Part shown: piece by piece, positions 15,702 through 31,820 of the stretch
Layout of the letters: every line of letters starts with the position of its first letter
How positions within the stretch are numbered: position 1 is the stretch's first letter
NCBI GenBank assembly: GCA_029257465.1
Contig: JARIBG010000099.1
Span: forward strand, 1 to 37,582
Direction: 5' to 3'
From: Arthrobacter sp.
GTDB lineage: Bacteria; Actinomycetota; Actinomycetes; Actinomycetales; Micrococcaceae
Length of the DNA: 37,582 nt
Made by a program: the position numbers and the translations under genes
The notes under the pieces: model-generated
Seen by the model: the letters and a program-made list of their open reading frames with translations, nothing else
Database searches by the model: none
Told to the model about the DNA's origin: nothing

Positions 15702-15743
15702 GTAGTGCCCACTCGTGCCACGTCTCGATCGTCTTCCTACGCT
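15702..15743 (+). promoter_or_regulatory. LAL-cluster promoter box A (before the first LAL pair)
   Basis: GTAG-tgc-CCAC-TCGTG at 15702-15717, then 20 nt, then the -10 box TACGCT at 15738-15743. There is no -35 consensus. An extra half-site-like CACGG lies 4 nt upstream, and an inverted CGAGTAG is at 15645-15651. The transcription start is expected near 15750, about 35 nt before the LAL1 ATG. Confidence 0.65.
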
Positions 15744-15784
15744 TCTCGGCAAGGAATCAGCACACGCTGGGAAGCCGGTCTCGT

Positions 15785-18253
15785 ATGCCACTGCAGGATG
15801 CCCTCCCCGTCACGTCCCTCCGGTCGCCTGCCCGATCAGCGCGCGAAAGCACCGGGGTCGGGCCGGGAGGAGCAATTCGTCCGGGCTTGGTCGGTCGAGG
15901 CGGACAGTCGATAGCGGTCCTGGATGCCCTGCAGCGTGCGGGGTCGGCAGGAGCCGTGGTGGTGGGTGCTCCCGGATCGGGGAAGTCCGCATTCCTGCAC
16001 CACGTCGAGCGTGGTCTGACGACGGCGCATCTCGTGCGGGTCCGGCCGCTCCGATGTTCCAGGACGGCGCCCTATCGCGACCTGGGGTTCCTGCTTCCGG
16101 AATATCCGGAAGCAGGAACCCCGCTGCATCCGGCGCTCGTGTCCAACGTCGTCCTGCAGCGGGTGCGCAAGGACGCCGGTTCCAGGAACGTCGTCCTCAT
16201 GATCGACGACGCGGAGCAGCTCGATGCCCTGTCGTCCGCCGTGATCGGTCAACTGATCCAGGACCGAGCGGTCCGCGCCCTCCTGACCGTGACGGATCCG
16301 ACCCGCCTGGACCCCTCGTTGCTGGCCCTCTGGCGATCCGGTTCCCTGGACCGGACGGATCTCACCGCGCTGTCCTTCGATCAGACCTGGCTGCTGGCAG
16401 AGGCCCGGCTCGGAGCTCCCCTCAGCAGGGAGGGCGTCGAAGCCCTGGCGGAGGCGGCGGGTGGGAGCCCCCGCACCATCTGCAGCCTGATGCAGGATCT
16501 GGTCCGGCGCTCGGTCCTCACCAGGCGGGATGACGTCTGGGTGCTCAGCGGGGATGTGTCTCAGGTCGGGTACGACGTCGATGCTGTTCTCGCCGCCGGC
16601 CCTGCCCTGTCCGCGCATCAACGGGACATCGTCCTCCTGCTGGCGCTCCTGGGCTCTGCTGTGTGGGCGGATCTGGCTCTGCTCTTCGATGCGTCGGACA
16701 TCGACGGCCTCGAAGCCGCCGGAGTTCTCCAGGTCGACAGTGGCCGAGCACCGCGTGTGAGCCTGGTGTCCCACGCTCTGGCATCAGTGCTGGCGGACTC
16801 GGTGTCGGCGCCCGATGCCGAGCGACTGTACGCCACACTCACCGACAGCGCCGGCGCCTTGAGAGACCTCCGCTCCGACCCGGCACGGCATGTCCTGTGG
16901 CGGCTCCGGGCTGGCAGGGCCGTGTTGCCGGAGCAGGTGGGTCGCGTGGCCCGCGCCCTGAACGACGACGGCGAGTACGGGCGCGCCCGCGCTCTGCTCG
17001 CTCTCCTCGGCCAGGCGCGCAGCTCCGTCACGCTCACGTACTACGGACTTGTCGCCGCAGTGGGCCTGGGGCATCACGAGGAGGCCTCGGACCTCGCGAC
17101 CGCGCTCACGGCTATGGAGGAGCAGCCCGAGCGGAGGGAGATGGTCGACTGCAGGATCGAGTGCTCGCGGCTGCAACGCCTCAGCTCGGTCCCGGCCGCC
17201 GCGGCAATCCTCGAGGAGGAGACCGCCCGGATCACGAGCTGGACACTCGACGCCGTCGTGGCCCGGGACTCGACCACGGTGATCGAGCTGGAGCAGCTCC
17301 AGAGGCGCCTCCGAGCTGCGCGGGCAGAGCTCGACGCATTCGAGGGACGCTTCCGGGAGAACCTGGAAGCACTGCCCTTGCTGGTCCGCCTCGATCCGCC
17401 CGAGACACTCGGCGCGGAGGAGCGTCGACTGCAGCTGACCGCGCAGTCGCTCCTTCTGGAGGCGAGGATCGCCACGGGCCAGGACGGCGAAGGGGAGCTG
17501 GCCCGCTCGCTCGTGCGGCACGTGAGGTACCCCGGGACCTCCTACCGCGATGCTGATGGTGCACTGCTGCGCATCGAACTCGCGTACCTGTTCACGGGTG
17601 GTCGGAGTGATCCCGGATCGTGGGGCCCGAGCCCGAGAGCAACCGGCTGGTCCTGGGAGCACGGATCACTCGCTCAGCTCTTCGAAGGCCTGGATCTCCT
17701 GGCAAGGAATCGCCTACCCGACGCGGGCGCTGTTCTTCGACCTGTGGTCCAGCAGCTGCGGGTCACGGACCCGCACGGAGTCCTGGTCGTCGCTGCGGCG
17801 GCTCTTATTCTCTGCTGCGAACAGGAGGGTTCTTCGCAGCGGATGATCACGCGGCTTCCCCTGGCGGACGCAGGCGGGAGCTCCTGGATGGTGCGGGGCG
17901 CGGCCCGGTCCTACCGCGCCCAGTCCTTCTCCCGCAGGCCGAGCCGGAGCGATATCGCGGACAAGGCTCATCATGCTGTCGCTGACGGTCCCGAACCTGT
18001 TCGCCCCGACCGAGAACGACGGGCGCACCTGCAAGAGGAACCGGCGGGCGACACTCGCCTCGGGGCGCTGACGAACCGCGAGCGGGAGATCGCCCTGCTC
18101 GCCTCCACAGGGAAAGCCAATCGTGATATCGCGCGAACAGTCTTCCTGTCGGTCCGGACGGTCGAAGGACACCTGTATCGGGTGTACTCGAAAATCGGTA
18201 TCAGCACCAGGGCTGAACTCCGCGCTGTCCTGCGGCCGGACGACGCCCGGTGA
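15785..18253 (+). CDS. LAL-type LuxR-family transcriptional regulator 1
   Basis: An 822-aa STAND-ATPase regulator. Walker A GAPGSGKS is at residues 61-68 and the Walker B-like NVVLMIDDAEQLD follows. A long helical, TPR-like middle contains no membrane segment. A C-terminal LuxR helix-turn-helix spans about 762-818 (LTNREREIALLAS, then SVRTVEGHLYRVYSKIG). Members of this family bind a ligand and ATP, oligomerise and activate transcription; the ligand here is unknown. GGGAAG lies 10 nt before the ATG. The gene is behind promoter box A and overlaps LAL2 by four bases (GTGA). A perfect 18-bp inverted repeat lies at codons about 100-113. It is paralogous to LAL2, LAL3 and LAL4 in architecture. Confidence 0.87.
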   Translation: MPLQDALPVTSLRSPARSARESTGVGPGGAIRPGLVGRGGQSIAVLDALQRAGSAGAVVVGAPGSGKSAFLHHVERGLTTAHLVRVRPLRCSRTAPYRDLGFLLPEYPEAGTPLHPALVSNVVLQRVRKDAGSRNVVLMIDDAEQLDALSSAVIGQLIQDRAVRALLTVTDPTRLDPSLLALWRSGSLDRTDLTALSFDQTWLLAEARLGAPLSREGVEALAEAAGGSPRTICSLMQDLVRRSVLTRRDDVWVLSGDVSQVGYDVDAVLAAGPALSAHQRDIVLLLALLGSAVWADLALLFDASDIDGLEAAGVLQVDSGRAPRVSLVSHALASVLADSVSAPDAERLYATLTDSAGALRDLRSDPARHVLWRLRAGRAVLPEQVGRVARALNDDGEYGRARALLALLGQARSSVTLTYYGLVAAVGLGHHEEASDLATALTAMEEQPERREMVDCRIECSRLQRLSSVPAAAAILEEETARITSWTLDAVVARDSTTVIELEQLQRRLRAARAELDAFEGRFRENLEALPLLVRLDPPETLGAEERRLQLTAQSLLLEARIATGQDGEGELARSLVRHVRYPGTSYRDADGALLRIELAYLFTGGRSDPGSWGPSPRATGWSWEHGSLAQLFEGLDLLARNRLPDAGAVLRPVVQQLRVTDPHGVLVVAAAALILCCEQEGSSQRMITRLPLADAGGSSWMVRGAARSYRAQSFSRRPSRSDIADKAHHAVADGPEPVRPDRERRAHLQEEPAGDTRLGALTNREREIALLASTGKANRDIARTVFLSVRTVEGHLYRVYSKIGISTRAELRAVLRPDDAR
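16084..16122. repeat. perfect 18-bp inverted repeat with 3-nt loop inside the LAL1 coding sequence
   Basis: Left arm 16084-16101 and right arm 16105-16122 are exact reverse complements, separated by ATA. The frame stays open through it (it encodes GFLLPEYPEAGTP). It follows the stretch aligned with the conserved PYGALAPLL region of the paralogues. Confidence 0.97.
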
Positions 18254-20775
18254 GCTGTACCGTCCCGCCTTCCGCATTCCCCTATCCGAGCAGAATGAAC
18301 CTGCTCGGCGAGCTCAGCGATGCACTGCAGGTGCGGTCCGCCTGCGGAGTCTTCGTCCACGGCGGCCCCGGCATGGGTAAGACGGTGCTGGCACACCTTC
18401 TCGAGGAGTCCGTGGAGGGCTTCCTCTCCTTCCTCATCACGGCGACGCCGACACTCAGGGATATTCCCTACGGTGCACTCGCACCCCTGCTCGTCGATGC
18501 GACACCAGAGGACCTGATGTCCCCGGCAGCGGTCCTGCGCGTTGTCCTGTCCTTCGTCCGACGCCGCTCGTCCACGCGCCGCGTCCTGATCATCGTCGAC
18601 GACCTCCATCTCCTTGATGGTGACAGCACCCTTCTGCTGACACAGCTGGTGAGCTACCGCGCGATCATGATCACGGGATTCGCTCCGTCGGCTGCCGTGC
18701 TGAGCCGGGAACTGGCATCCCTCGCCGACGATGGCCTGGTGGAGCTTTGTGCCATGGAGCCGCTGACCGAGCTCGACGTCCTCATACTGTGTCGGCAGCG
18801 GCTGGGCGAGAACACCGCCCTCGGCGTGGGCCGCCGACTACGTGAGGAATCAGCAGGCAATCCGCTGTTCCTCCCGGGGATCCTCGATGAGGCCCTCCGG
18901 GACGGATCCCTGGCAGTCGTGGACGGGGTCTGGGTGCTGAAGGACACCGAGCTGAGCATTCCGGCACTCCTCACGCAGGTCGTGACATCCATCGTTGCGC
19001 AGCTCGACGCACCCGAACGCTCCGCGCTCGAGGTACTCGCCCTGTCCGAGGTGGTCAGCCTTCCCGATCTGATCCGTCTGAGCAGCGAGGACGCTGTGCT
19101 GTCACTGCTTCGGAACGGTCTCGTCCGAATCCTGCCGAGTACGTGGATGAAGGATCTCGGAAGCTGCACCTTTCCCGGGCGAATCATGCGAACCGCCATT
19201 CCCACGGGACGGAGGTGCTCCCTGCTCCGGGAGGTGGGGTCGAAGCTCTTCGAGGACAGGACATTGCCGGCGCGACGACGGATCCGTCACGGGATCTGGG
19301 CGCTCGAATGCGCTCAGGCCGTGCCCGCTGAGTGGGAGCTCGAACTTGCGGCGCTGGCCTTGCAGAACAGCGACCCTCGTGCGGCTCTGAGGCTCATCGG
19401 CGACATCCGCTCCCCGGAGTCGGCGGTCGGCGCAGCCGTATACCGCGCCGTCGCCCTGTTCGAGCTGTCCCGACTCGGCGAATCCCGACAGGTGAGTACC
19501 GGTCTCCTCGAGCGCGCAGCAACCCCACAGCTGGTGACGGCTATGGTTTCCCTCGAACAGCGGCAGGCGGTGGCTGCACCACAAGGAACCGGGCGCCCGT
19601 CCCATATCCTCGAGCGGATCTCCAGAACACTCGTGAACCGGACGGGGACCTCCCGGGAAGAGGTGGAGAAGACTCCCGACCTCGTGATCGCCAGGGCATC
19701 GGAGGCGAACGTCCTGGGACGGTACGCAGAGACGATCCAGGCACTGGATCCCGTGTTCGAGGAACAACCGGGCGATCTCCGCCGGCTCACGATGGCGCAC
19801 GCCCTCCTCGCGGAAGCACTCGGTGCCAGTGGCAGGACCGATGAGGGTCTCGAGCACAGTTCGGTGGCTCTCACCCTCGTCGACGAATATCCGGAGCTCA
19901 TCTCGGATCTTCACCGGGCCGTGGTCTTCCGCCATCTGAGTCTCCTGGTGCACAGCGGTGGTCTTGCTGCGGCCGAGGAGGTACTCGGCAACCGCGCGTT
20001 CGGTATCGAGACCGAATACGCCTTCTGCAGTGGGAGCATCGCCGTCCTGGATGCGGCGATCGATGCACGGAGAGGACTGTTCAGAAGCGCACTGGCGAAG
20101 ATCGGTCCTGCTCTGGTGTCCCTGCGTCGATCCGACCACGATGCGCTCCTGGGTTACGCGCTGGGTATCGGGGCCTGGGCAGCAGCCGTGAGCGGTGATG
20201 CCGAGCAGCTGGTTCTGTGGTCCGGCGAGTTCGCGTCGTCCGTGTCACGTACGGCTGCTCAGTCTGCGCTGCGCGGAGAGGCGCTGATCACCGCAGCATC
20301 GATCCTGCATGGCTCGGGCAGTACCACCCCGGCTCTGGTCGATCTCGCGCGTACCGCCAGGGAGCGCCGGTGGTACACCGCCGAGAAGGACATCCTCCAG
20401 CTCGCCGTCGCTCTCGGCGACGACAGCTCCCCGGCCCTGCTCGCAACGATGGCCGGAAATCCCCGGGGAGCAGAACCACGTGTGCTCCGCCCTCTCGCGC
20501 GTCGTCGTCGGGCATCGATCGACGGGGATCCGGTCACGGAGCAGGCGAACCCGGGTGCCCCCTACTCTCTGACATCCCGTGAGCGCGAGATCGCCGTCCT
20601 GGCATCCGATGGTCGGTCCAACAGGGCGATCGCCCGGCGACTGGTGGTGTCATCGCGCACGGTGGAGGGTCATCTGTACCGGGTCTTCGCCAAGCTCGGT
20701 ATAGCGCGACGCGAGGACTTGGCAGCGTATACGAAGGATCTGCCGCGAGGCGGGTCCGCCGGCGGGTGCACGTAG
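18250..20775 (+). CDS. LAL-type LuxR-family transcriptional regulator 2
   Basis: An 841-aa paralogue of LAL1. Walker A GGPGMGKT is at residues 38-45 and Walker B in RRVLIIVDDLHLLD. A long repeat-rich helical middle follows, with the LuxR helix-turn-helix at about 774-828 (LTSREREIAVLAS, then SSRTVEGHLYRVFAKLG). The GTG start overlaps the LAL1 stop codon (GTGA), which indicates translational coupling. An in-frame ATG at 18295 would remove 15 residues that appear to align with the start of the other ATPase domains, so GTG is preferred. A second copy of the cluster promoter box lies 40 nt after its stop codon. Confidence 0.87.
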   Translation: MSCTVPPSAFPYPSRMNLLGELSDALQVRSACGVFVHGGPGMGKTVLAHLLEESVEGFLSFLITATPTLRDIPYGALAPLLVDATPEDLMSPAAVLRVVLSFVRRRSSTRRVLIIVDDLHLLDGDSTLLLTQLVSYRAIMITGFAPSAAVLSRELASLADDGLVELCAMEPLTELDVLILCRQRLGENTALGVGRRLREESAGNPLFLPGILDEALRDGSLAVVDGVWVLKDTELSIPALLTQVVTSIVAQLDAPERSALEVLALSEVVSLPDLIRLSSEDAVLSLLRNGLVRILPSTWMKDLGSCTFPGRIMRTAIPTGRRCSLLREVGSKLFEDRTLPARRRIRHGIWALECAQAVPAEWELELAALALQNSDPRAALRLIGDIRSPESAVGAAVYRAVALFELSRLGESRQVSTGLLERAATPQLVTAMVSLEQRQAVAAPQGTGRPSHILERISRTLVNRTGTSREEVEKTPDLVIARASEANVLGRYAETIQALDPVFEEQPGDLRRLTMAHALLAEALGASGRTDEGLEHSSVALTLVDEYPELISDLHRAVVFRHLSLLVHSGGLAAAEEVLGNRAFGIETEYAFCSGSIAVLDAAIDARRGLFRSALAKIGPALVSLRRSDHDALLGYALGIGAWAAAVSGDAEQLVLWSGEFASSVSRTAAQSALRGEALITAASILHGSGSTTPALVDLARTARERRWYTAEKDILQLAVALGDDSSPALLATMAGNPRGAEPRVLRPLARRRRASIDGDPVTEQANPGAPYSLTSREREIAVLASDGRSNRAIARRLVVSSRTVEGHLYRVFAKLGIARREDLAAYTKDLPRGGSAGGCT

Positions 20776-20814
20776 TCCGATCCGGGCAATCGAGTAGCCG
20801 CGACGCAAAGTCGC

Positions 20815-20856
20815 GTCCGAACTACTCGTGCTCGCCCGGAGGTCCACTCCTAGTGT
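20815..20856 (+). promoter_or_regulatory. LAL-cluster promoter box B (before a structured non-coding region)
   Basis: GTCC-gaa-CTAC-TCGTG at 20815-20830, then 20 nt, then the -10 box TAGTGT at 20851-20856. An inverted copy of the half-site, CGAGTAG, is at 20791-20797. A CGCGAC/GTCGCG hairpin lies between them. The transcription start is expected near 20863. Confidence 0.6.
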
Positions 20857-20862
20857 TGTCAC

Positions 20863-20999
20863 TGTCGAAGGGGTGTTCGTCGAGAATGCCCTCTTCGCCC
20901 CACAGACTGGGTCGGCGGCGTAGGAGTTCTCCTGAGACCAGAACTTCGTCCCCAGCCGCCGCCGACCCTCACACTCCGGCTCGCACATACCGTGAGCCG
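20863..20999 (+). ncRNA. candidate structured small RNA driven by promoter box B
   Basis: Downstream of box B there are nested stems. GTCGGCGGCG (20911-20920) pairs with 20957-20966, enclosing AGTTCT (20925-20930) with AGAACT (20940-20945). A second hairpin pairs CGGCTC (20977-20982) with GAGCCG (20994-20999). An alternative pairing, CTCAC (20968-20972) with GTGAG (20992-20996), competes with it. A 42-codon reading frame from ATG 20885 overlaps the structure but is Arg/Ser/Pro-rich and looks non-coding. The 3' end is not defined, so the transcript might run into rplY. The stem bases are exact; the RNA itself is inferred. Confidence 0.4.
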
Positions 21000-21060
21000 C
21001 GGATCTCCCGGTGATCGAAGCGCCCGGAACCGGCGCATCCTCGCATCGCCCGGTCTGCGG

Positions 21061-21066
21061 TAGCAT
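21061..21066 (+). promoter_or_regulatory. possible -10 box for rplY
   Basis: TAGCAT about 180 nt before rplY. No clear -35 box is seen. The stretch 20776-21248 otherwise holds promoter box B, the candidate small RNA and the rplY leader, and no convincing protein gene. Confidence 0.3.
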
Positions 21067-21084
21067 GGTAGGTAATGCCTAGGC

Positions 21085-21189
21085 GAGGGAGCGGGCCGGA
21101 ACTACACGTGCCGGCGGCGTTCCGTGATCGACGGTGGCTGACGTCCCGACTGGTTTCCGGACGACTGACCCGCGCGAACACGTTCCCTC
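21085..21189 (+). promoter_or_regulatory. possible structured leader of rplY
   Basis: GAGGGA (21085-21090) can pair with TCCCTC (21184-21189), and the adjacent GCGGG (21091-21095) with CCCGC (21169-21173). Inside, CGTCC/GGACG forms a short hairpin. This could be a ribosomal-protein autoregulatory leader. The fold was made by eye and is one of several possible. Confidence 0.25.
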
Positions 21190-21248
21190 CCAGCAGCGTC
21201 CAGAGTTCGCGCCCAGAGCGCGAAGTCGCATCATCCTGAGGAGAAACC

Positions 21249-21899
21249 ATGTCCGAGCAGAAGCTCTCAGCCCATGTCCGCACCGAGTTCGGTAAGGGTG
21301 CGGCTCGTCGTGCTCGCCAGGCGAACATGATCCCGGGAGTCGTGTACGGCCACGGCGCCGACCCGATCCATGTGCTGCTCCCCTCGAAGGCCACCACGCT
21401 CGCGGTCCGGACGGCGAATGCACTGCTGACCCTGGATATCGAGGGCGCGGACCATCTCGCACTGGTCAAGGACATCCAGCGCGACCCCATCAAGCAGATC
21501 GTCGAGCATCTCGACCTGCTGACCGTCCGTCGCGGCGAGAAGGTCGAGGTGGACGTCGCCATCCATGTCGAGGGTGAGCCTGCTCCGGAGGTCGTGTCCA
21601 ACCTCGAAGCCAGTACCGTCCTGGTCGAGGCCGACGCCACGCGCCTGCCCGAGGCGCTCACCGTGAGCATCGAGGGTCGCCAGATCGGTGAGCACGTGTT
21701 CGCCTCGGACATCGAGCTCCCCTCCGGCGTCACGCTCCTCACCGATCCCGAGACGCTCGTGGTCAACCTCATGGCACCCGTGGTGCAGGATCTCGGAGAC
21801 GTCGAGGAGACCGACGTCGACACCGAGGCCGTGGCCGAGGGAGCGACAGCCCCGGACGCCGACCAGGACGCCGTCATCACCGACGCCGACGAGCGGTAA
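21249..21899 (+). CDS. rplY: 50S ribosomal protein bL25 (general stress protein CTC type)
   Basis: A 216-aa, long (TL5/CTC) form of bL25. The N-terminal 5S rRNA-binding domain is recognisable from SAHVRTEFGKGAARRARQANMIPGVVYGHG. The C-terminal beta domain follows (VDVAIHVEGEPAPEV, LPSGVTLLTDPETLVVNL). The tail is acidic, rich in Asp and Glu. A strong AGGAG (21239-21243) precedes the ATG by 5 nt. It sits 10 nt before pth, a common actinobacterial pairing. The pair is flanked on both sides by LAL regulator pairs. Confidence 0.95.
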   Translation: MSEQKLSAHVRTEFGKGAARRARQANMIPGVVYGHGADPIHVLLPSKATTLAVRTANALLTLDIEGADHLALVKDIQRDPIKQIVEHLDLLTVRRGEKVEVDVAIHVEGEPAPEVVSNLEASTVLVEADATRLPEALTVSIEGRQIGEHVFASDIELPSGVTLLTDPETLVVNLMAPVVQDLGDVEETDVDTEAVAEGATAPDADQDAVITDADER

Positions 21900-21909
21900 G
21901 CAGGTCCCG

Positions 21910-22494: not shown

Positions 22495-22512
22495 CCTGAA
22501 GAAGGCGGGGCC

Positions 22513-22538
22513 GACCCGCGACGAATCAGCGCCGGGTC
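22513..22538 (+). terminator. inverted repeat after pth, possible weak terminator
   Basis: GACCCG (22513-22518) pairs with CGGGTC (22533-22538) over a 14-nt loop, without a T-run. It lies in the 90-nt gap between pth and LAL3. The gap also holds GATAAT (22565-22570), a possible -10 box for LAL3, and no copy of the cluster promoter box. Confidence 0.25.
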
Positions 22539-22584
22539 CGTGCGGTAGCGCGATACAGTGAGCCGATAATGCAAGCGTCGCAGG

Positions 22585-25320
22585 GTGGTAGCGCACGATG
22601 GGGAAGACTTACGCGGGTTCGATGATGCTGAGCGGGCCGAGGTCTCATCGGATCCAGCCGTTCATGGGCCGGCTTCCATGAGGGCCGTCAGCGAGCGCTG
22701 GCCCTTTTCCGGACGTCAGGTCGAGGTAGCTGCGGTCGAGGCCTCGCTCAGCGGCGACGGGCCAGGTGGCGTCGTTCTCGTGGGTCCTCCCGGAATAGGC
22801 AAGACGAGGATCGTCCAGCAGATGGTGGACGGCGCTGCCGACACCGTCGATCACGTGTATCTCCGCGGTGCGGCAGCCCACTCCGCCGTGCCGTACGCCG
22901 CACTCAACGTGCTACTGGCTGAACTCGACGAGGGGATCGCGGGTAGTCCTGTCCTGGTGCTGGGGGCACTGCAGCGCACGTTCGGCGGCGGCGACCCCCG
23001 TCGTCGGACCCTGATGCACATCGATCAGGTGGAGGACGTCGACGAACTCTCCGCAGCGGTGATAGCCCAGCTCGCGCGGGTGGGAGTGGTCCGCCTGGTT
23101 CTCACGTGCAGGAACCTGCTGCAGGCGCCCGAAGCGTTCCTCGAGCTGTGGAAGGACGGGCTCCTGGACCGGCTCGACATCGAGCCGCTCACGCTCGGGG
23201 CCACGACGGAACTGCTCTCACGTGCGCTCGAGGCGTGTATCTCCTCTTCAGCGGCACGAGAGCTCTGGACCTCGAGCCGGGGCAATCCGAGATACCTCCA
23301 GGCAGCGACGAAGGCGGACGTGGCAGCCGGGAAGCTCTTCTGCCACGATGGCGTCTGGGTGGCACAGCAAGCACCAGGACTACGGTCCGCGCCCTCGGTC
23401 GATGACCGGGCCCTCACCGAGCTCATCGCACTACCCGCCGACGAGCGCGCCGTGGTCGAGGTACTCGCGGTTGCCGGGCCGCTGCCCGTGCGGATCCTTC
23501 TGCAGGCGGTGCAGGCGGATTCCCTCGACGCCCTGCAGATCCGCGGCATGCTGAAGCCCGCTACCGGCGACGTCCCGGCACTCGGTCTCTCCTTCGATGT
23601 GTTCGGCGACGTCGTCCATGGTCGGTTCCTCTCCACCGCTGGCCTGTTTGCGTTGGAGACGCTGAACCGACTCCGGGATGAGCCGGGTATGCCTGCGCGG
23701 GGGCGGACGGCACTTGCAGCCTGGGCTCTCGGGAGAGGATTCCCGACCACGGACCCCGACCTGGTGTCCCTGGCCCGTCTGGCGAACGATCACGGACTGG
23801 ACCAGCTGGCAGGCCGTTTCCTGGACGCCCTGCAGACAGGGCGAACCACCAGCAGCGCGTTGATCGAGGGTGCGCGGCAGGAGTGGCTCGACGGTCGCAC
23901 AGCGGACGCCCTGGCAACCCTCGAACCTCTCCTCACACCCGGGCCCACCCACGAGATCGCGCTACCCGAGTGGGTTCGGGCCCGACTCCTCGTCTCCCGT
24001 CTGCTAGCGGGAGTGCCCGGCAGGGAGAAGGAGATGGCAGCCCTGCTCGACGACGTGCGGGCACAACTCCAGCGCGAGACCGCCGCTCCCGAGGATCTTC
24101 AAGGGGAGCTTGCTCTGGCCGGACTGGAAGCTCACGCTTTCGAGGGTGAACTGGACCGCGTGTGCGAGTACGCACCGGGAATCCTCGCGACGTCGGGGCA
24201 GGACAGCCGATGGACCATCCGGATCCGGGGTCTTCTCGGCCTCGCCCAGACGGGCGTGGGCGCGCAGGAACAAGCCATCAGGACGGCGGAGAACGTCGTT
24301 GCGCGTCTGAGAGATGCTCCAGCGGGCCTGATCGAGCACGAGTATGAGCGCGCGACTGCGCATCTGTTCTGGGCCCTGTTCATGGCCGGCTCCTGGGACG
24401 AGTGCTTCGACATGCTCGCGGATCGACGTGATCGATCCAGGACCCCGTTCACCGGGGAGGACGACCCCCTGGACACCGCTGAGGGAGTCGTCCTCTCCTA
24501 TCTGGGCAGGAGCAGCGAGGCGTTGCCGAAACTCGTACCGGCACTCAGCCAGCTCCGGGTGAGGGACAGGCACGGGCTCCTGCCGCTCGCGGAAGCAGCA
24601 GCGGCCTACTCCCACGCGCTTGACGGCGACCCCGACGAGGCCGTCCGTCACCTGCGCGCGATCGACCTCAACCCTCAGCGGTACTCCTGGTCCCTGCGTG
24701 AAGCCGTGCTGTACTTCCGGCTGCTGACCGAGGCCTGGCTGGAGACCCCGGATGCTGCCGCTGTCCACTTCCTGCAGCACGCCCGTCAGCTGGAAAGCAC
24801 CGGTAATCGGGGAGTGGAGCTCCTCTTCCTGTGTCAGGCGGTGCAGCTCGGGCGCTATGAGGCAGCGGATTCCCTTGCAGCTTCGGCCGCAGCCTCGCAG
24901 GGTCGAATGGCACATCTTGCCGGGAAGCTGGCCAAGGGCCTCTCATCGGGTGATCCGGACTCCTTGAAACAGGCGGCGTTCGAGGCGCTCGAGCTCGGCA
25001 ACAACAATCTCGCGGGGGATCTCGCGAGCCTGAGCATCGATCATCTCTCCGACGCGGACGACCCGATGATCCGGGTACACGCCGAACAGATCCTGCGGAG
25101 GACCTCGACACCGGCCCGCCGTCACGTACGGCATAAACTCCTCAGTGCGAGGGAACGTGCGATCGCCCGCAAGGTGGCCCAGGGCGTGCCGAACAAGGAG
25201 ATAGCTCAGCAGGAACACATCTCGCCGCGCACGGTCGAGGGCCACGTGCACCGGATCATGTCCAAGCTCGGGTTGTCCAGCCGCAAGCAGCTCTCGCTGA
25301 TCTTCGGGCGGGAGCAGTGA
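22585..25320 (+). CDS. LAL-type LuxR-family transcriptional regulator 3
   Basis: The largest of the four paralogues, 911 aa. Walker A GPPGIGKT is at residues 67-74. The Walker B strand (RTLMHIDQVEDVD) has a single acidic residue rather than the usual pair. The helical middle resembles the others, and the LuxR helix-turn-helix is at about 853-907 (LLSARERAIARKVAQG, then SPRTVEGHVHRIMSKLG). The GTG at 22585 is the first in-frame start after the possible GATAAT box; ATG 22678 (MRAVSERWPFSGRQ) is an alternative, as the first 31 residues look unconserved. It overlaps LAL4 by four bases (GTGA). No cluster promoter box precedes it, so this pair may be expressed separately and control the boxes. Confidence 0.86.
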   Translation: MVAHDGEDLRGFDDAERAEVSSDPAVHGPASMRAVSERWPFSGRQVEVAAVEASLSGDGPGGVVLVGPPGIGKTRIVQQMVDGAADTVDHVYLRGAAAHSAVPYAALNVLLAELDEGIAGSPVLVLGALQRTFGGGDPRRRTLMHIDQVEDVDELSAAVIAQLARVGVVRLVLTCRNLLQAPEAFLELWKDGLLDRLDIEPLTLGATTELLSRALEACISSSAARELWTSSRGNPRYLQAATKADVAAGKLFCHDGVWVAQQAPGLRSAPSVDDRALTELIALPADERAVVEVLAVAGPLPVRILLQAVQADSLDALQIRGMLKPATGDVPALGLSFDVFGDVVHGRFLSTAGLFALETLNRLRDEPGMPARGRTALAAWALGRGFPTTDPDLVSLARLANDHGLDQLAGRFLDALQTGRTTSSALIEGARQEWLDGRTADALATLEPLLTPGPTHEIALPEWVRARLLVSRLLAGVPGREKEMAALLDDVRAQLQRETAAPEDLQGELALAGLEAHAFEGELDRVCEYAPGILATSGQDSRWTIRIRGLLGLAQTGVGAQEQAIRTAENVVARLRDAPAGLIEHEYERATAHLFWALFMAGSWDECFDMLADRRDRSRTPFTGEDDPLDTAEGVVLSYLGRSSEALPKLVPALSQLRVRDRHGLLPLAEAAAAYSHALDGDPDEAVRHLRAIDLNPQRYSWSLREAVLYFRLLTEAWLETPDAAAVHFLQHARQLESTGNRGVELLFLCQAVQLGRYEAADSLAASAAASQGRMAHLAGKLAKGLSSGDPDSLKQAAFEALELGNNNLAGDLASLSIDHLSDADDPMIRVHAEQILRRTSTPARRHVRHKLLSARERAIARKVAQGVPNKEIAQQEHISPRTVEGHVHRIMSKLGLSSRKQLSLIFGREQ

Positions 25321-28001
25321 CTCGCTCCGAGGTCGCCGTACAGCTGGTCGGCAGAGAGCGCTCCCTGGAGGACACCACCACGGCGCTGCTCGACCCGAAC
25401 GGCTTCGGTGCAGTGCTCGTCGGGGAAGCCGGAGTCGGCAAAACGGCCCTCGCGCAGGTCGCCCTGGACCAGTTGGACTGGACAGCGCCCGTCCTTCCGG
25501 TCACCGGCGGCTCAGCACTTCGCAGGATCGCCTTCGGCGCCTTCGCTCCCTATCTGCACTCTCTTCCCCTTACCGATGTCGATTCACCGGTCGCTGTGCT
25601 TCGCGCCGTCATGGACCATCTGGCAGCACAACGGACCGATCGTGCGCAGCTCCACCCGCCGTTGCTCGTCGTCGACAATGCTGACGACCTCGACGACAGC
25701 TCGAGTGCCCTGCTAGCCCAGCTCATCAGCGCTCGTCGTGCGAAGGTGCTCGTCATCGTGCGCGACCTGCAGGCTGCTCCCGCCGAGTTCCAGCACCTCA
25801 GCACCGACAACCTGCTGACCCGCATCGATCTTGCACCACTCGACGTCGATGAGGTCGCAGTCCTGTGCGCGCAGCTGCTCGGCGGTCGGGTGCTCACGTC
25901 GTCCACGCACACTCTGGCTGTGGCGACCGGAGGCAACCCGAGACTGCTGCGGGCCGTCCTGGAGTGCGGGGAAGCGGAGGGGTATCTGGAGCAGCACGAC
26001 GACGTGTGGTCCCTGCGACCGGACAGGTGGGTCGTCACCGCGCGCGTCGGAGATGTGGTCCGTGCGCACCTGCGTTCACGGAGCGCATCGGAGCTGTCCC
26101 TGCTGGAGCTCATCGCCCTCACCGAACCGATCACCCTGGAGGTACTGGCGCAGGATGACGGGTTCGAGGAGGAGGTGCTCGAGCGGCTCAGGAACGCTCG
26201 CCTGGTCGTCGTCGGACATGGACCGGAGCACGTCGTCTCCCTCGAGCCTCCGCTGTTCGGGGAGGTGCTGCGCCACCGGCTGCCGCTGGCACGGAGTGTC
26301 ATCACACGGCGGCGGATCCTGGACCTGCTGCCTGGTGAAGCACAGTCCTCGGAGAGCTTTCTTCGCACGGTCTCGTGGCGACTGGAGTGCGGCGAGAGTG
26401 TCGACGACAGGATACTTCTCCGCGCGGGTTCGCTCGCCAATGGTTTATCCGACTACACATTCTCCCTCAGGGCGGCACGCGCGGTAGCAGCGCCAGACCT
26501 GCGCGGGCATGCGCTGATCGAGCTCGCCCGCGCCCATGCGGGGCGCGGAAGCCTCGCCGATGCGCAGGACCTCGCCCGAGAGGCACTCGATCTCTCCAGA
26601 GACCTGCGTGTCATCGCGGACGGTATGCTCCTGTCCTTCGAGCTCGGGCTGAGATCTGGCGCATCATCCGAGGATCTGCATCACGTCGTCGAGCGCTGGA
26701 AGTCGGTGGTCGCAGATCTCGATGCACGGCCAGGGGCGCATCGGGTGGGTACGGATCCTGCATGGGCCCGCCTCGGGCCCGTCATCCTCGAATGCCGGGT
26801 TCGCCTCCTCGAGGGGCGGCTCGACGGGCTGGAGGAGGAACTGCGCGACCTGCTCTCCGCTCGTTCCGCAACCGCCGAGTCCCGTGTGGGTTGCCTCATC
26901 CTGCTGGGCGAACTGCTCGGTGTTCTCGGGCGGTCCGCTGCGGGCATCGTGCACTCGCAGGAGGCGCTGGACATCATCGACGCCGAGGGTGCGTCGCTGC
27001 TGGTCTACCGGACCTTCGCGGTCGAGCGCCACCTGTTCCTGCTCACGATCAGCGGTCTCCATGCAGAAGCCGGCACCTTTCTCGACGCTTTCCTCCGTGA
27101 AAATCCTCGCACTGTCCCTCACCTCGCGGTCTGGAGTGACCTGATCGGCGGTATCGTCGCCCTGCGTGCCGCCCGGAACCGGGAGGCGCGCGATCGCCTG
27201 CTGCTCGCCGCCGCAGCGCTGAGGCAGTACGGCGATTCTCACGTGGCCGCCCTTCCGATCGGTATGGCAGCCTACGCGTGTGCCCTGGCAGGGGAGACGG
27301 ACTGGGCCACGGCCCTCATCGATGACTTCAGGCGGAACGCCGGAGGTGGGTCGGTACCCATCCGGCTCCGCGGCGAGATCTTCGTCACGGCGACCGCCGC
27401 CCTGATCGAAGGCACAGGACGGGCGCGTGCCGAGCTACTCGACCTGGCGGCGGCAGCGGACAGGGGGCAGCTGAAGGAGCTGGCTGGTACTGCTCTTCGA
27501 CTGGTGCTGCTCCTCGGGGACAGCAGAGCCCTCGATCCACTCCTGGATCTCCTGCCCGGTCTGGAGGAATCCGAGACATCCGTGCTGCTGAACTTCGTAA
27601 GAGCCGCAGCGGTGAAGGACACCGACGCGATGGTGGACGCGGCCTCTGCCGCCGGGGAGCTCGGTGACATCGCGCTCGAGTTCGCGGCCTTGACCCTCGC
27701 GCACCGCTTCATCGACGAGAAGGGCTCCACCCGGCAGTCCCGTACCATCCGGCGACGGCTGCTCACGATGGCCGAACAGCGGGAGGGGCATGTGCCGCCA
27801 CCCCTCGCTGCTGCGCCGTCCTCGAACACCCCTCGCCTGACCCCCACCGAGCAGGCCATCGTCGATCTCGTCAAGGAGGGCTACTCGAACCGTGACATCG
27901 CTGATGCGAAGGAGGTGTCCGTCAGAACCGTGGAGGGTCACCTCTACCGCATCTTCGCGAAGTTCGGCGTCAGTCGCCGCGAGGACCTCCGCGAGCGATG
28001 A
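25317..28001 (+). CDS. LAL-type LuxR-family transcriptional regulator 4
   Basis: An 894-aa paralogue. Walker A GEAGVGKT is at residues 36-43, Walker B in PPLLVVDNADDLDD, and the conserved RRIAFGAFAPYLHSL stretch follows. The long helical middle carries TPR-like repeats. The LuxR helix-turn-helix is at about 841-894 (LTPTEQAIVDLVKEG, then SVRTVEGHLYRIFAKFG) and ends the protein. The GTG start overlaps the LAL3 stop codon (GTGA), so the pair is translationally coupled, the same arrangement as LAL1-LAL2. It lies immediately before the polysaccharide cluster. Confidence 0.87.
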   Translation: MTRSEVAVQLVGRERSLEDTTTALLDPNGFGAVLVGEAGVGKTALAQVALDQLDWTAPVLPVTGGSALRRIAFGAFAPYLHSLPLTDVDSPVAVLRAVMDHLAAQRTDRAQLHPPLLVVDNADDLDDSSSALLAQLISARRAKVLVIVRDLQAAPAEFQHLSTDNLLTRIDLAPLDVDEVAVLCAQLLGGRVLTSSTHTLAVATGGNPRLLRAVLECGEAEGYLEQHDDVWSLRPDRWVVTARVGDVVRAHLRSRSASELSLLELIALTEPITLEVLAQDDGFEEEVLERLRNARLVVVGHGPEHVVSLEPPLFGEVLRHRLPLARSVITRRRILDLLPGEAQSSESFLRTVSWRLECGESVDDRILLRAGSLANGLSDYTFSLRAARAVAAPDLRGHALIELARAHAGRGSLADAQDLAREALDLSRDLRVIADGMLLSFELGLRSGASSEDLHHVVERWKSVVADLDARPGAHRVGTDPAWARLGPVILECRVRLLEGRLDGLEEELRDLLSARSATAESRVGCLILLGELLGVLGRSAAGIVHSQEALDIIDAEGASLLVYRTFAVERHLFLLTISGLHAEAGTFLDAFLRENPRTVPHLAVWSDLIGGIVALRAARNREARDRLLLAAAALRQYGDSHVAALPIGMAAYACALAGETDWATALIDDFRRNAGGGSVPIRLRGEIFVTATAALIEGTGRARAELLDLAAAADRGQLKELAGTALRLVLLLGDSRALDPLLDLLPGLEESETSVLLNFVRAAAVKDTDAMVDAASAAGELGDIALEFAALTLAHRFIDEKGSTRQSRTIRRRLLTMAEQREGHVPPPLAAAPSSNTPRLTPTEQAIVDLVKEGYSNRDIADAKEVSVRTVEGHLYRIFAKFGVSRREDLRER

Positions 28002-28022
28002 GGTGTGGTAGCAGGTAGCACA

Positions 28023-28038
28023 ACCCCCTACCGGGGGT
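28023..28038 (+). terminator. GC-rich hairpin after LAL4
   Basis: ACCCCC (28023-28028) pairs with GGGGGT (28033-28038) over a 4-nt loop, 21 nt after the LAL4 stop. No T-run follows. A second small dyad, AGTTC/GAACT, lies at 28060-28076 just upstream of promoter box C. Confidence 0.4.
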
Positions 28039-28090
28039 GACCGTGAGTACTGCGCAGGTAGTTCACATAAAGAACTTCTAGCACGAACGC

Positions 28091-28132
28091 GTAAACCTTA
28101 CTCGTGTGCCGGTGATGAGTGCTTCCTAGGCT
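28091..28132 (+). promoter_or_regulatory. LAL-cluster promoter box C (before the sugar transferase operon)
   Basis: GTAA-acc-TTAC-TCGTG at 28091-28106, then 20 nt, then the -10 box TAGGCT at 28127-28132. The inner part is a perfect dyad. An upstream CACGA (28082-28086) mirrors the TCGTG with a 4-nt offset. The start is expected near 28139. Confidence 0.65.
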
Positions 28133-28138
28133 GGGAGG

Positions 28139-28406
28139 ACGAAAGCTTCCAGATCGAAGCTGGGGAAATCTTGAAGAATCGGGTCTCACTCATGGACCGA
28201 CCAGTCTGCGGCACTCGCCGTCACCGTCGAATACGTACTCCTCGTACGCTCCTCGGATCGACGGTCGTTTCTGCATCAGCCAGGCCGCTCCGGCAGACGG
28301 AGCAGGCGAACCCACATCCCTATGAGACCGGGGCCCGTCCTCAGCTGTCGGCTCTTTCGCCGAAACCTGTGCGACGCGGTGTCCTACTGCCGGCGAGGGG
28401 CGTGCT
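28139..28406 (+). promoter_or_regulatory. long structured leader of the polysaccharide operon
   Basis: Between the predicted transcription start and GTG 28407 lie about 265 nt without a clear gene. AGCTTC (28144-28149) pairs with GAAGCT (28156-28161). A nested stem pairs CGTCGA (28225-28230) with TCGACG (28258-28263), enclosing CGTAC (28234-28238) with GTACG (28244-28248). A 72-codon frame from ATG 28192 ends in TGA at 28408-28410, overlapping the next start codon. It is Arg-rich with codon use unlike its neighbours, so it is either a translated leader or chance. Confidence 0.4.
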
Positions 28407-29894
28407 GTGACGCAAACACATAGCGCTACCAGCCGGTCCACGGCGATCCCGTACGTCTCATGGGTTCACAAACCGCTAGCCGCATCCGGCATTGCGTGGC
28501 GGCGCCGGTACCAATTCTCCCTTCTCGCAACCGACTCCGTCCTCGTCATCGGGATCCTGCTGCTGACCGTGAACCTCGTCACCCTCGACCAGAACGTCCG
28601 GCACATCACGAATGTGCTCGCCCTCGGCGGGGCGATTGCCGCGGCTTGGATGGTGATGATGGTCCTCTTCCGGACCAGGGATCCGCGCATCGTGGGCACG
28701 GGCGCCAGCGAGTACAAGAAGGTCATCCGCGCGAGCACTGCAACTTTCGCCGCTACCGCGGTGGTCGTCGTCCTTCTGGACCTGGAGCACTTCCGCAGCC
28801 TTCTCGTCGTCGCCTTCCCCGCAGGGACGGTACTTCTCTTGTGCGCCCGCTGGTTGTGGCGCCAATGGCTGATCCGGCAGAGCCATCTTGGTCACTACCT
28901 TTCGAAGGTCGTCGTCGTCGGAAGGGCGGCAGATGTGCGGTACGTCACTGCGCAACTCGAGAAGAAATCGGGCGCGGCCTACGCCGTCGTGGGGGTGGTC
29001 TACGAGGGCAAGGGCGACGCGGTGGCACTGCATGCCGGAAGGCGTGTCCCGGTCGTCAATGGTCTGCGCCGAATAGAGGACCTGGTACTGCAGACGGGCG
29101 CTGATTCGGTCATTGTTGCCGGACACCTCCGCAAGGGCAGTGCCTACATCCGCGAGCTCGGATGGCGGCTGGAACGCACCTCGACCGAGTTGGTCCTCGC
29201 CTCCACGCTGACGAACGTCGCGGGTCCGCGCATCACGATGCGCCCTGTCGAGGGACTTCCCCTCATGCACGTGGAATTACCGCAGTTCACCGGCGGGCGT
29301 CATGTACTGAAGCGGATGATGGACATCGTCGTCTCGTCGGGAGTACTTCTGCTCCTCGCACCGCTGTTCCTCGTCATGACTGTCCTGATCCGGCGGGACA
29401 CACCGGGTCCTGCCATTTTCACCCAGGAGCGAGCCGGCAAAGCGTCGGCCGCTTTCGCCATGTTCAAGTTCCGCTCTATGGTGACGACTGCTGAGGAGGA
29501 GCTCGAGCTCCTCAGGGAGCAGAACGAAGGCAGTGGTGTCCTCTTCAAGATGAGAGAGGATCCAAGAGTTACCCGGGTGGGCAGATTCATCAGGAGATAC
29601 TCGCTCGACGAGCTTCCCCAGATGTGGAACGTGCTGCGTGGCGACATGTCTCTCGTAGGTCCGCGTCCACCACTGTTGAGCGAAGTGTCCGGCTACGAAC
29701 AGCACACGCATCGCCGCCTCCTCATCAAGCCCGGCCTCACCGGACTGTGGCAGGTCAGCGGACGATCCGACCTCGACTGGGACGAGAGCGTCCGGCTGGA
29801 CCTGTGGTATGTGGAGAACTGGTCGGTGATCGGAGACCTGATCATCATGTGGCGCACGTTCAAGGTCGTGTTCACCTCTGCGGGCGCCTACTGA
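28407..29894 (+). CDS. polyprenyl-phosphate sugar-1-phosphate transferase (exopolysaccharide priming enzyme)
   Basis: A 495-aa membrane enzyme of the WbaP/WcaJ/CpsE type that starts polymer synthesis by loading a sugar phosphate onto undecaprenyl phosphate. Four N-terminal membrane segments (about residues 36-150) precede a Rossmann-like middle (VVVVGRAADVRYVTAQL). One membrane hairpin (MMDIVVSSGVLLLLAPLFLV) leads into the catalytic domain: QERAGKASAAFAMFKFRSM, RVGRFIRRYSLDELPQMWNVLRGDMS, VGPRPPL and the PGLTGLWQVSGRS signature. The GTG start follows GAGGGG by about 7 nt. The sugar used cannot be read from the sequence. First gene of the cluster, behind promoter box C. Confidence 0.92.
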   Translation: MTQTHSATSRSTAIPYVSWVHKPLAASGIAWRRRYQFSLLATDSVLVIGILLLTVNLVTLDQNVRHITNVLALGGAIAAAWMVMMVLFRTRDPRIVGTGASEYKKVIRASTATFAATAVVVVLLDLEHFRSLLVVAFPAGTVLLLCARWLWRQWLIRQSHLGHYLSKVVVVGRAADVRYVTAQLEKKSGAAYAVVGVVYEGKGDAVALHAGRRVPVVNGLRRIEDLVLQTGADSVIVAGHLRKGSAYIRELGWRLERTSTELVLASTLTNVAGPRITMRPVEGLPLMHVELPQFTGGRHVLKRMMDIVVSSGVLLLLAPLFLVMTVLIRRDTPGPAIFTQERAGKASAAFAMFKFRSMVTTAEEELELLREQNEGSGVLFKMREDPRVTRVGRFIRRYSLDELPQMWNVLRGDMSLVGPRPPLLSEVSGYEQHTHRRLLIKPGLTGLWQVSGRSDLDWDESVRLDLWYVENWSVIGDLIIMWRTFKVVFTSAGAY

Positions 29895-29979
29895 TGTGCC
29901 CGCCCTCAGTCCAACCTTCCGTTCACCACGCATGACTGCAGGTATGACTGCGGCTGGTACAAGCAGTAAAGGAAGTTCC

Positions 29980-30426
29980 ATGGGAATCCGAATCGGCTAC
30001 GCGGCAGGTGCCTTTGACCTGTTCCACATAGGTCACCTCAATCTCCTACGCCACGCGAAGAGCGAATGCGACTTCCTGATCGCGGGTGTCGTCTCGGACG
30101 AACTGCTCGAGACGAAGAAGGGCAAGCGGCCGGTCATCCCTCTGATCGAACGGCTCGAGATCGTCCAGAGCGTGCAGTTCGTCGATCGGGCCGTGGCCGA
30201 AACCGCTCCTACAAAACTCGATATGTGGAAGCAACTGGGATTCAACGTGTTCTTCAAGGGCGACGACTGGAAGGGAACAGTACAGGGGTTGGCACTCGAG
30301 GAGACCTTTGCGGGGGTAGGCGTCGAGATCATCTATTTCCCCTACACCGTCCACACCTCGAGCACTGTTCTGAGGCGGACCCTGGAGCTCCTCAACGCTT
30401 CTCCCGCCCACGAAACCGCCCTCTGA
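29980..30426 (+). CDS. cytidylyltransferase-like nucleotidyltransferase (TagD family)
   Basis: A 148-aa protein of the glycerol-3-phosphate cytidylyltransferase / PCT superfamily, which makes CDP-activated alcohols for teichoic acid-like polymers or lipid head groups. The nucleotide-binding HxGH motif is in GAFDLFHIGHLNLLRHAK, followed by FLIAGVVSDE and a KGDDWKGT segment. The C-terminal RTxGISTT motif of true TagD is replaced by VHTSSTVLRRTLE, so the substrate is uncertain. ATG 29980 is chosen for the AAAGGAAG ribosome binding site about 6 nt upstream. It suggests that the polymer carries a phospho-alcohol unit. Confidence 0.82.
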   Translation: MGIRIGYAAGAFDLFHIGHLNLLRHAKSECDFLIAGVVSDELLETKKGKRPVIPLIERLEIVQSVQFVDRAVAETAPTKLDMWKQLGFNVFFKGDDWKGTVQGLALEETFAGVGVEIIYFPYTVHTSSTVLRRTLELLNASPAHETAL

Positions 30427-30485
30427 TCCATTACGGTGCGAGCGCTACGCAACGGCGTTCGTACGTCGAAGACTGGGAGTCCATC

Positions 30486-31655
30486 ATGCCTGTGCCATCT
30501 CGTTCGAAGCCTTTACGCATAGCCCTCATGGGTACCAGGGGAGTCCCTGCACGCTACGGCGGTTTCGAGACAGCGGTCGAGGAAGTGGGTCAGCGCCTTG
30601 TCGCCCGCGGACACGAGGTCGTCGTCTACTGCAGGTCCGGGAAGGGTACGCAGCGTCAGGCCGAGTACAGGGGCATGAAGCTGGTTCACCTGCCGTCGCT
30701 GAGGACCAGATCGCTGGAGACTCTCAGCCATACGGCGCTTTCGGTCGGACATCTGTTCTTCAGGCGGGCAGATGTGGCAATCGTCTTCAATTCCGCGAAT
30801 TCACCCTGGTTGCCGGTGGTGCGGGCAGCCGGTGTCCCCGTCGCTACCCATGTCGATGGACTCGAATGGAAGCGTGCCAAGTGGGGGCCGGTGGGTAAGA
30901 GGTACTATCGCATCGCAGAATCCCTGGCTGTCCGCTGGTCTGATGCGCTGATCGCCGATGCAGCGGGTATCCAGGACTACTATCGGGCCGAGTTCGGCGT
31001 CGAGAGCACTTACCTCGCGTACGGCGCGCCGATCCTCGAAGGACATGCGGCAGACCGTCTCTCGGAGCTGGACCTCACGCCGGGGAACTATCACCTCGTC
31101 GTTGCCCGTTTCGAACCCGAGAACCACGTTCATGTGGTCGTCGAAGGCTTCGTCCACAGCGGAGCTTCGTTGCCTCTCGTTGTCGTAGGTTCGGCGCCGT
31201 ACTCGGACGGATACACGCAGCACGTGATCTCCCTCGGCGATGAACGTGTTCGTTTCGTCGGTGGGCTGTGGGACCAGGAGTTGCTGGACCAGCTATACGC
31301 CAACGCCCGCATCTACTGGCACGGGCACTCGGTGGGCGGAACCAACCCGTCCCTCCTACGGGCGATGGGGGCAGGAACCGCGACCAACGCGTTCGACGTC
31401 AACTTCAACCGTGAAGTGCTGGGTCTCAATGGCGAATACTTCACCGACGCCGCTGACATCCCGGCGCTCGTGCACGCCGCGGAGGCTTCGGAATCGGAGA
31501 CGCTCCTGCGAGGCAAGAAGGTGCAGTCGGACGCCCTCGCCTACGACTGGGATCGTGTTGCGGAGGGCTACGAGCGGCTGTGCAGGGAACTCGCGGACCG
31601 GCGCGGTGGTAAAGGCCGCCGGTCCGGGGCCTTCCCGCTCATCGAAACTACCTGA
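30486..31655 (+). CDS. family 4-like glycosyltransferase with DUF1972-type N-terminus
   Basis: A 389-aa GT-B enzyme. The N-terminus LRIALMGTRGVPARYGGFETAVEEVGQRL is characteristic of DUF1972 glycosyltransferases, often annotated as rhamnosyltransferases. HVDGLEWKRAKWG, the linker LVVARFEPENHVHVVVEGF and HSVGGTNPSLLRAMGAG are the donor- and acceptor-site motifs. It probably adds a second sugar to the lipid-linked primer. GGGAG precedes the ATG by about 5 nt. It follows the cytidylyltransferase by 59 nt and is likely in the same transcript. Donor and linkage are unknown. Confidence 0.87.
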   Translation: MPVPSRSKPLRIALMGTRGVPARYGGFETAVEEVGQRLVARGHEVVVYCRSGKGTQRQAEYRGMKLVHLPSLRTRSLETLSHTALSVGHLFFRRADVAIVFNSANSPWLPVVRAAGVPVATHVDGLEWKRAKWGPVGKRYYRIAESLAVRWSDALIADAAGIQDYYRAEFGVESTYLAYGAPILEGHAADRLSELDLTPGNYHLVVARFEPENHVHVVVEGFVHSGASLPLVVVGSAPYSDGYTQHVISLGDERVRFVGGLWDQELLDQLYANARIYWHGHSVGGTNPSLLRAMGAGTATNAFDVNFNREVLGLNGEYFTDAADIPALVHAAEASESETLLRGKKVQSDALAYDWDRVAEGYERLCRELADRRGGKGRRSGAFPLIETT

Positions 31656-31729
31656 GGGCAGGCACCGGGTGCGCTCCGATCATCAGGTGGACCCGCGACG
31701 GTCCCGACCCAACGTCCATACCGAATCAG

Positions 31730-31771
31730 GTAGGCACTACTCGTGCGTGGCACCTCGGTACTTTCTAGGAT
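31730..31771 (+). promoter_or_regulatory. LAL-cluster promoter box D (before the lipoprotein-flippase-PKD operon)
   Basis: GTAG-gca-CTAC-TCGTG at 31730-31745, then 20 nt, then the -10 box TAGGAT at 31766-31771. The inner dyad is perfect. The start is expected near 31778. The leader then carries GGTCTC at 31813-31818, 2 nt before the ATG, as in the LAL1 leader. Confidence 0.65.
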
Positions 31772-31820
31772 ACTCGCAGCTTGTCCGTCCGCCCCGGGCG
31801 CACCAGAAGATTGGTCTCAC

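Follow-up and report, generated by a model that had tools for sequence, protein, structure and literature searches.

Four copies of one predicted promoter lie along the forward strand of contig JARIBG010000099.1 from Arthrobacter sp. (assembly GCA_029257465.1), whose 37,582 nucleotides (nt), taken as a whole, are referred to here as the window. They precede a pair of LAL regulator genes, a hairpin-forming region, a sugar-transferase operon and a lipoprotein operon, the two operons being likely to serve the synthesis of a surface polysaccharide. Comparison with related genomes makes it probable that the four constitute a single promoter type, that LAL proteins are the likely ligands of its palindrome, and that one copy produces a hairpin RNA which pairs with GGUCUC at the start codons of the other three transcripts. 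Somewhat less firmly, we favour a broader proposal of a two-layer LAL regulon, in which one promoter type yields both messages and an antisense hairpin RNA that would act in trans on GGUCUC tags and in cis within a leader open reading frame (ORF) coupled to the polysaccharide priming enzyme. This regulon would extend over several genera of Arthrobacter's family and appears not to have been described so far; no account of it or of the RNA was found in the literature searched, by titles and starts of abstracts, with most subscription journals outside its scope.

A preliminary description of the same DNA had reported the four sites and read them as activator sites of one LAL regulator that define a small regulon. 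As a whole its observation is partly confirmed and its interpretation partly supported. It had missed the covarying hairpin after site 2, the leader ORF that opens the transferase transcript, and the start tags on the three coding transcripts.

Architecture and spread of the predicted promoter sites

The four sites are as follows.

15702..15743 (+): site 1, operator GTAGTGCCCACTCGTG, 20 nt, −10 TACGCT; predicted promoter of LAL1-LAL2, with one mismatch to the family pattern
20815..20856 (+): site 2, operator GTCCGAACTACTCGTG, 20 nt, −10 TAGTGT; predicted promoter of the hairpin RNA, which in relatives lies downstream of the matching site
28091..28132 (+): site 3, operator GTAAACCTTACTCGTG, 20 nt, −10 TAGGCT; predicted promoter of the leader ORF and sugar-transferase operon
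31730..31771 (+): site 4, operator GTAGGCACTACTCGTG, 20 nt, −10 TAGGAT; predicted promoter of the lipoprotein operon

The reported coordinates hold, all four sites carrying ACTCGTG, exactly 20 nt and then TANNNT, and no fifth site was found in the window when one mismatch in TACTCGTG and spacers of 18-22 nt were allowed. The consensus first given for the left part, GTAR-N3-YTAC, matches only sites 3 and 4 exactly, the corresponding letters being GTAG-TGC-CCAC in site 1 and GTCC-GAA-CTAC in site 2. In relatives this consensus forms the inner part of a larger element, consisting of the palindrome ACGAGTA-N5-TACTCGT, a G, a pyrimidine, TTCC and, exactly 20 nt on, a −10 like TAGGCT. The element was derived from 67 copies, in a search that fixed GTA, TANNNT and the TACTCGTG core, this last with one mismatch allowed, and left the remaining columns free. 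Its right half is better kept than its left, since many copies with an exact right half have no GTA on the left.

The distance to the −10 is similarly constrained. When spacers of 12-28 nt were allowed in 38 genomes of the genus, 26 of the 33 matches fell at 20 nt (tallied by hand), and in some Arthrobacter and Pseudarthrobacter loci the −10 is TTNACT or TTAATT, judged by eye, still at a distance of 20 nt. The −35 boxes had been described as absent. A good −35 is indeed lacking, but the element is perhaps better described as a poor −35 (GTGnnn): the GTG at the end of the operator starts the place of the −35 hexamer with a 17-nt spacer to the −10, so that the −35 would be embedded rather than absent. 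Class II sites of LuxR/NarL-type activators are centred near −42. The palindrome and its fixed 20 nt place the dyad near −43, in agreement with the earlier estimate, and at the sequence level the sites thus resemble class II promoters in having a dyad near −42 that overlaps a poor −35 at a fixed distance from the −10.

With only 14 fixed positions, a chance resemblance among four GC-rich promoters might be suspected. We regard this as negligible, as it is refuted by the mismatch scan of the assembly, by the 20-nt spacing and by the counts across the family. The window's assembly comprises 2.43 Mb in 187 contigs and is 83.7% complete. Within it, TACTCGTG-N20-TANNNT has three matches, all in the window and on one strand, and the reversed pattern has one. 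Allowing up to two mismatches in the 14 fixed positions gives seven matches, against two for the reversed control; those with no or one mismatch are the four sites only, and the other three have two. The stricter pattern GTA-N5-TACTCGTG-N20-TANNNT occurred in 10 of 35 sampled genomes of the family and in none of 361 from other families of the order (396 genomes; reversed control, 0). Across 295 family genomes it gave 90 matches (hand count) in 63 genomes and 11 of 32 genera, with one match for the reversed control. The preliminary description had named as a hazard that a matrix might match unrelated promoters at the same rate; in the survey of the order, made with exact patterns rather than with a genome-wide matrix, sites were found only in the window's family.

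LAL regulators as likely readers of the palindrome

LAL regulators are common in actinobacteria, and few of their operators are known. The window encodes four.

15785..18253 (+): LAL1, AAA_16 and LuxR-type helix-turn-helix (HTH), 822 amino acids
18250..20775 (+): LAL2, LuxR-type HTH, AAA_22 above cut-off and AAA_16 0.1 bit below it, 841 amino acids
22585..25320 (+): LAL3, true start probably a little downstream; no site directly upstream
25317..28001 (+): LAL4, AAA_16 and LuxR-type HTH, 894 amino acids

All four have the LAL layout of an ATPase-type N-terminus and a C-terminal LuxR HTH in about 800-1000 amino acids, with GerE above cut-off in four of four and AAA_16 in three of four. In this, in their length of about 820-910 amino acids and as likely activators of linked operons, they match known LAL regulators. 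Unlike those, the four stand in one cluster, share RTVEGH, and are accompanied by a palindromic operator whose spacing is fixed and by an RNA proposed to be under the same control.

The association of sites and regulators was surveyed in 79 genomes over 32 genera, where a LAL match was defined by E<=1e-20 with a first query and a second query was applied to the rest. The first query matched 48 genomes and the second 3 of the remaining 31, leaving 28 without either. An exact site is present in 20 of the 79, all of them LAL-positive, and in none of the 28 LAL-less genomes (cross-tabulated by hand); the share of sites among the 79 is no sample estimate, because the genera were chosen with knowledge of which held sites. 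The operator is therefore conserved together with LAL genes, recurring in relatives that carry them when searched by exact patterns.

Position and co-occurrence make it likely that LAL regulators bind the palindrome. The preliminary description had attributed it to one of the four; LALs are indeed its likely readers, but which of the four binds cannot be named, because all share RTVEGH in the recognition helix. RTVEGH or RTIEGH is found there in 48 of 52 LAL frames of the first loci, and RTVDWH in 4. The autoregulation proposed earlier for a LAL operon is in line with the location of site 1 before LAL1-LAL2 and with the recurrence of sites at LAL operons in relatives, and the idea of one small regulon gains from sites that recur in relatives before LAL genes and the sugar transferase with the spacing kept.

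The palindrome might instead be read by another family-wide regulator, such as a response regulator or a BTAD protein, the LAL genes being mere targets like the polysaccharide genes. This would suit the sites found in relatives before BTAD, ANTAR and LAL genes outside the main cluster, as well as the 8 of 19 LAL-positive genera with no exact site, and the argument for LAL binding is itself drawn from sequence. We nevertheless judge it quite unlikely, given that LAL-less genomes have no exact site, that the site stands at LAL operons in several genera, and that a dyad suits a LuxR-type HTH. As described in the available part of the report on it, the SARP-LAL protein PimR uses its SARP domain to bind heptameric direct repeats (PMC5930380), so that a SARP regulator of this kind would use an operator of another form than the palindrome found here.

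We therefore retain the LAL proteins as the likely readers. A literature search by titles and starts of abstracts found no such palindromic operator for LALs, and no paper in the literature searched combines TACTCGTG with Arthrobacter. In the accessible part of the UMCV2 luxR paper the phrase 'binding site' does not occur (PMC9659744). A record labelled Vibrio cholerae 35D (L076) contains an Arthrobacter-like LAL pair and is likely a contaminated assembly.

A conserved, predicted hairpin RNA and its complement at start codons

The hairpin features and the GGTCTC tags of the window are listed below.

20863..20975 (+): predicted small RNA, both ends predicted; a variable 5' stem-loop, then the conserved hairpin
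20910..20967 (+): conserved hairpin with P1 of 11 bp, P2 of 6-8 bp, a loop with UGAGACC and an internal CCCCAG; 72.3 bits, E 2.9e-13, the window row itself being part of the model
28301..28353 (+): possible decayed cis copy of the hairpin in the leader ORF, UGAGACC kept and several pairs broken; 19.9 bits, E 0.037
15777..15782 (+): GGTCTC tag, 2 nt before the LAL1 ATG (15785)
28182..28187 (+): GGTCTC tag, 4 nt before the leader ORF ATG (28192)
31813..31818 (+): GGTCTC tag, 2 nt before the lipoprotein ATG (31821)

Site 2 is followed by a conserved block of about 75 nt, whose identity to the window is 91-96% in five loci of relatives (L034, L038, L108, L112 and L125) and 78-86% in further loci, with diverging flanks. 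It folds into a long hairpin (z −3.2), and 12 of its 17 pairs have changed on both sides. The alignment contains 91 double-change cells, compared with 25.4 in shuffles and at most 15 in slid versions, the structure having been derived from the same rows on which it was tested. GAGACC and CCCCAG are kept in all 30 copies found by plain similarity to the window, and the letter before GAGACC varies. A larger alignment (A2) includes 41 of 45 distinct copies and leaves out L026, L041, L071:7215 and L109.

In a model search the hairpin was detected in 138 of the 295 family genomes, belonging to 16 of 32 genera, and in none of 361 genomes outside the family. Among the 79 genomes surveyed for LAL genes, 40 are RNA-positive and all of these have LAL matches (cross-tabulated by hand); the exception to the first query among them has a LAL pair right before the RNA. 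Rfam returned no family at threshold for the window or for the loci of 8 relatives, and the RNA is absent from Rfam 15. Actino-ugpB RNA and other Rfam families resemble it as short GC-rich actinobacterial RNAs; membership was rejected, the best match in the region scoring 15.7 bits against a threshold of 42.5. The window's genome contains one good copy and the possible decayed one in the transferase leader, which is weak in that the next match elsewhere in the window scores 19.2 bits. No tandem repeats were found near the hairpin RNA. At L157:1375-1496, two hairpin copies stand in tandem upstream of a site.

Site 2 could simply serve rplY-pth, as rplY is the next gene on the strand, about 390 nt on. 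This is very improbable and was rejected: relatives have up to several kb between site 2 with its hairpin and rplY (3.8 kb in L038, 5.5 kb in L112), and rplY has its own conserved block just upstream (about 21047-21139 in the window). That block, which is also present before rplY in relatives and has no Rfam match at threshold, is probably the rplY promoter and leader.

The link between the predicted RNA and the other three sites lies in the loop, whose GAGACC is the exact reverse complement of GGTCTC. The three coding transcripts of the window carry this tag, and the fourth transcript is predicted to be the RNA itself. Within 150 nt of the −10, GGTCTC is the commonest of all 4096 hexamers, with 53 of 135 distinct site copies containing it; hexamers permuted from the same letters have a mean of 6.3, the next highest of these being 16, and the second-commonest hexamer is GTCTCA (41). 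A start codon follows GGTCTC by 0-5 nt in 50 of 55 site-linked cases (hand count). For GGTCTC anywhere in the longer loci, a start codon follows in 280 of 1618 cases (17%), compared with a median of 16% for permuted hexamers. Complementarity of the loop to target start regions is thus conserved, though not in distant genera with other loops. A contig labelled as an Acidobacteria metagenome-assembled genome (L122) has LAL genes with a site and a GGTCTC tag and is likely misbinned.

In distant genera the outer stem and the C-rich strand persist and the loop often differs. There, GGTCTC is found at the LAL start in 3 of 7 loci with a GAGAC loop, all in one genus, and not in the other 4, compared with 0 of 9 LAL-bearing loci with other loops. 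In several of these genera (L212, L215, L216, L221, L223 and others), with other loops, the LAL starts often carry TTGGGG. This motif precedes 24 of 275 LAL frames and 9 of 638 others; it may pair with the CCCCAG of the RNA (with one G-U) or be a Shine-Dalgarno sequence.

These data bear on whether the hairpin merely terminates transcription or binds a ligand or protein, with GGTCTC acting independently as a translation signal, which we hold to be unlikely without dismissing it. In its favour, the hairpin is often located behind LAL operons or within leader ORFs, CCCCAG is as well conserved as the loop, distant genera retain the hairpin with other loops, and the energies of loop-tag duplexes are unremarkable. 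Such a reading leaves unaccounted for the exact reverse complementarity of loop motif and tag, the tie of the tag to the same promoters, its absence at the LAL starts of the nine loci with other loops, and the lack of any general association of GGTCTC with start codons. We accordingly prefer pairing of the predicted RNA with the tags.

Target genes and proposed mode of control

The operons downstream of sites 3 and 4 comprise the following genes.

28192..28410 (+): leader ORF, 72 amino acids; its stop TGA overlaps the GTG start of the sugar transferase by 4 nt (GTGA)
28407..29894 (+): exopolysaccharide (EPS) polyprenyl glycosylphosphotransferase (the sugar transferase); TIGR03025 above cut-off
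29980..30426 (+): cytidylyltransferase-like protein
30480..31655 (+): GT4-type glycosyltransferase, start approximate
31821..32498 (+): putative lipoprotein, so named in the preliminary description; no Pfam match
32495..33763 (+): the 'flippase' of that description; no Pfam or NCBIfam match
33756..37582 (+): protein with LamG and PKD domains, open at the contig end

The sites of relatives are located at LAL pairs that follow prs, downstream of LAL pairs, and upstream of the sugar transferase and of the lipoprotein operon. A strong site is present in 27 of 35 upstream regions of sugar-transferase homologues, scoring above all 700 shuffles; the scan is partly circular, some of these loci having been used to train the matrix, and 6 duplicate pairs reduce the count to 21 distinct regions. 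The remaining eight consist of two with a site at 21 nt (L098 and L105), three with diverged forms (L075, L116 and L118) and three that represent other copies on the opposite strand (L036, L039 and L125).

Leader ORFs in a frame other than that of the transferase number 17, the window included. Fifteen overlap a possible transferase start by exactly 4 nt (hand count) and the remaining two lie 1 nt from it, so that all overlap or abut the main gene as a mok-type leader does. The hairpin lies inside the leader ORF in 14 of the 17 (hand count). A few loci depart from this layout, having the tag at the transferase's own frame or a leader that is fused to the transferase; at L116:13196 the fusion is in frame, with the hairpin still inside.

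Taken together, these features suggest the following mode of control. Acting as a class II activator, a LAL dimer centred near −43 would compensate for the poor −35, so that the RNA would rise in concert with LAL1-LAL2 and with the polysaccharide and lipoprotein operons. Pairing of loop and tag would cover the ribosome-binding and start region and thereby lower translation of LAL1, of the leader and transferase, and of the lipoprotein, which at LAL1 would provide feedback on that regulator. As the leader overlaps the transferase start by 4 nt, blocked leader translation would in our proposal also block the transferase, and the hairpin inside the leader ORF, found there in most relatives with such an ORF, could act in cis. 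The regulon would be switched on as a unit and then trimmed by its own RNA. Position and co-occurrence point to the activation step, and complementarity and conservation to the RNA step.

A partial parallel is offered by hok/mok/Sok of plasmid R1, in which, according to the accessible part of the source, the main gene depends on the translation of a leader ORF whose start is complementary to an RNA (PMC4147584). By analogy, the RNA here is complementary to the start of a leader ORF and the main gene is proposed to depend on that leader. The present arrangement differs in that it is no toxin system, the RNA is not encoded opposite its target, several targets are predicted, and the RNA has the same promoter type as its targets. 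Membership among type I toxin-antitoxin systems of the hok/sok kind was rejected, the main gene encoding an EPS glycosylphosphotransferase and no small membrane toxin.

Several observations weigh against this proposal. LAL3-LAL4 (22585-28001), although members of the cluster, have no site of their own in the window. GGTCTC is missing within 150 nt in 82 of 135 site copies, including most g10-type and other distal targets, and six other places in the window combine GGTCTC with a start, opening frames of 55-264 amino acids that all lie inside other predicted genes. Pairing energies of the loop with its three predicted targets in the window do not stand out, as 5-12% of random 45-mers from the window pair equally well. 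Invariance of GAGACC and CCCCAG in alignment A2 proves nothing, because both were required when its copies were gathered, and GAGACC is retained in only 6 of 30 RNA hits with lower scores, which come from 18 genomes; the 138 RNA-bearing genomes therefore do not all have one loop type. The loop-tag comparison in distant genera (3 of 7 against 0 of 9) is fitting but thin, and suggestive only. The 4-nt overlaps of leader and transferase depend on candidate starts and have an estimated chance of about one in five. That the RNA lowers expression is a guess from the position of the tags. Finally, all counts overstate independence, because the sequences are related.

Even so qualified, comparison alone yields an operator, a spacing rule and a set of targets, and so makes the regulator directly testable. 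It also provides an RNA family outside Rfam 15 that occurs with LAL regulators and comes with predicted targets. Control of surface polysaccharides in Arthrobacter-type bacteria thereby becomes testable at the level of both DNA and RNA.

Beyond these operons, 20 distal targets of sites in relatives were scanned with Pfam, their genes having been called by a simple script. Six proteins had no Pfam match and one LamG match fell below cut-off. The other matches comprise GT2 and GT4 glycosyltransferases, a polysaccharide deacetylase, BTAD and ANTAR regulators, a Gfo/Idh oxidoreductase, a PQQ-repeat protein, another sugar transferase and a LAL.

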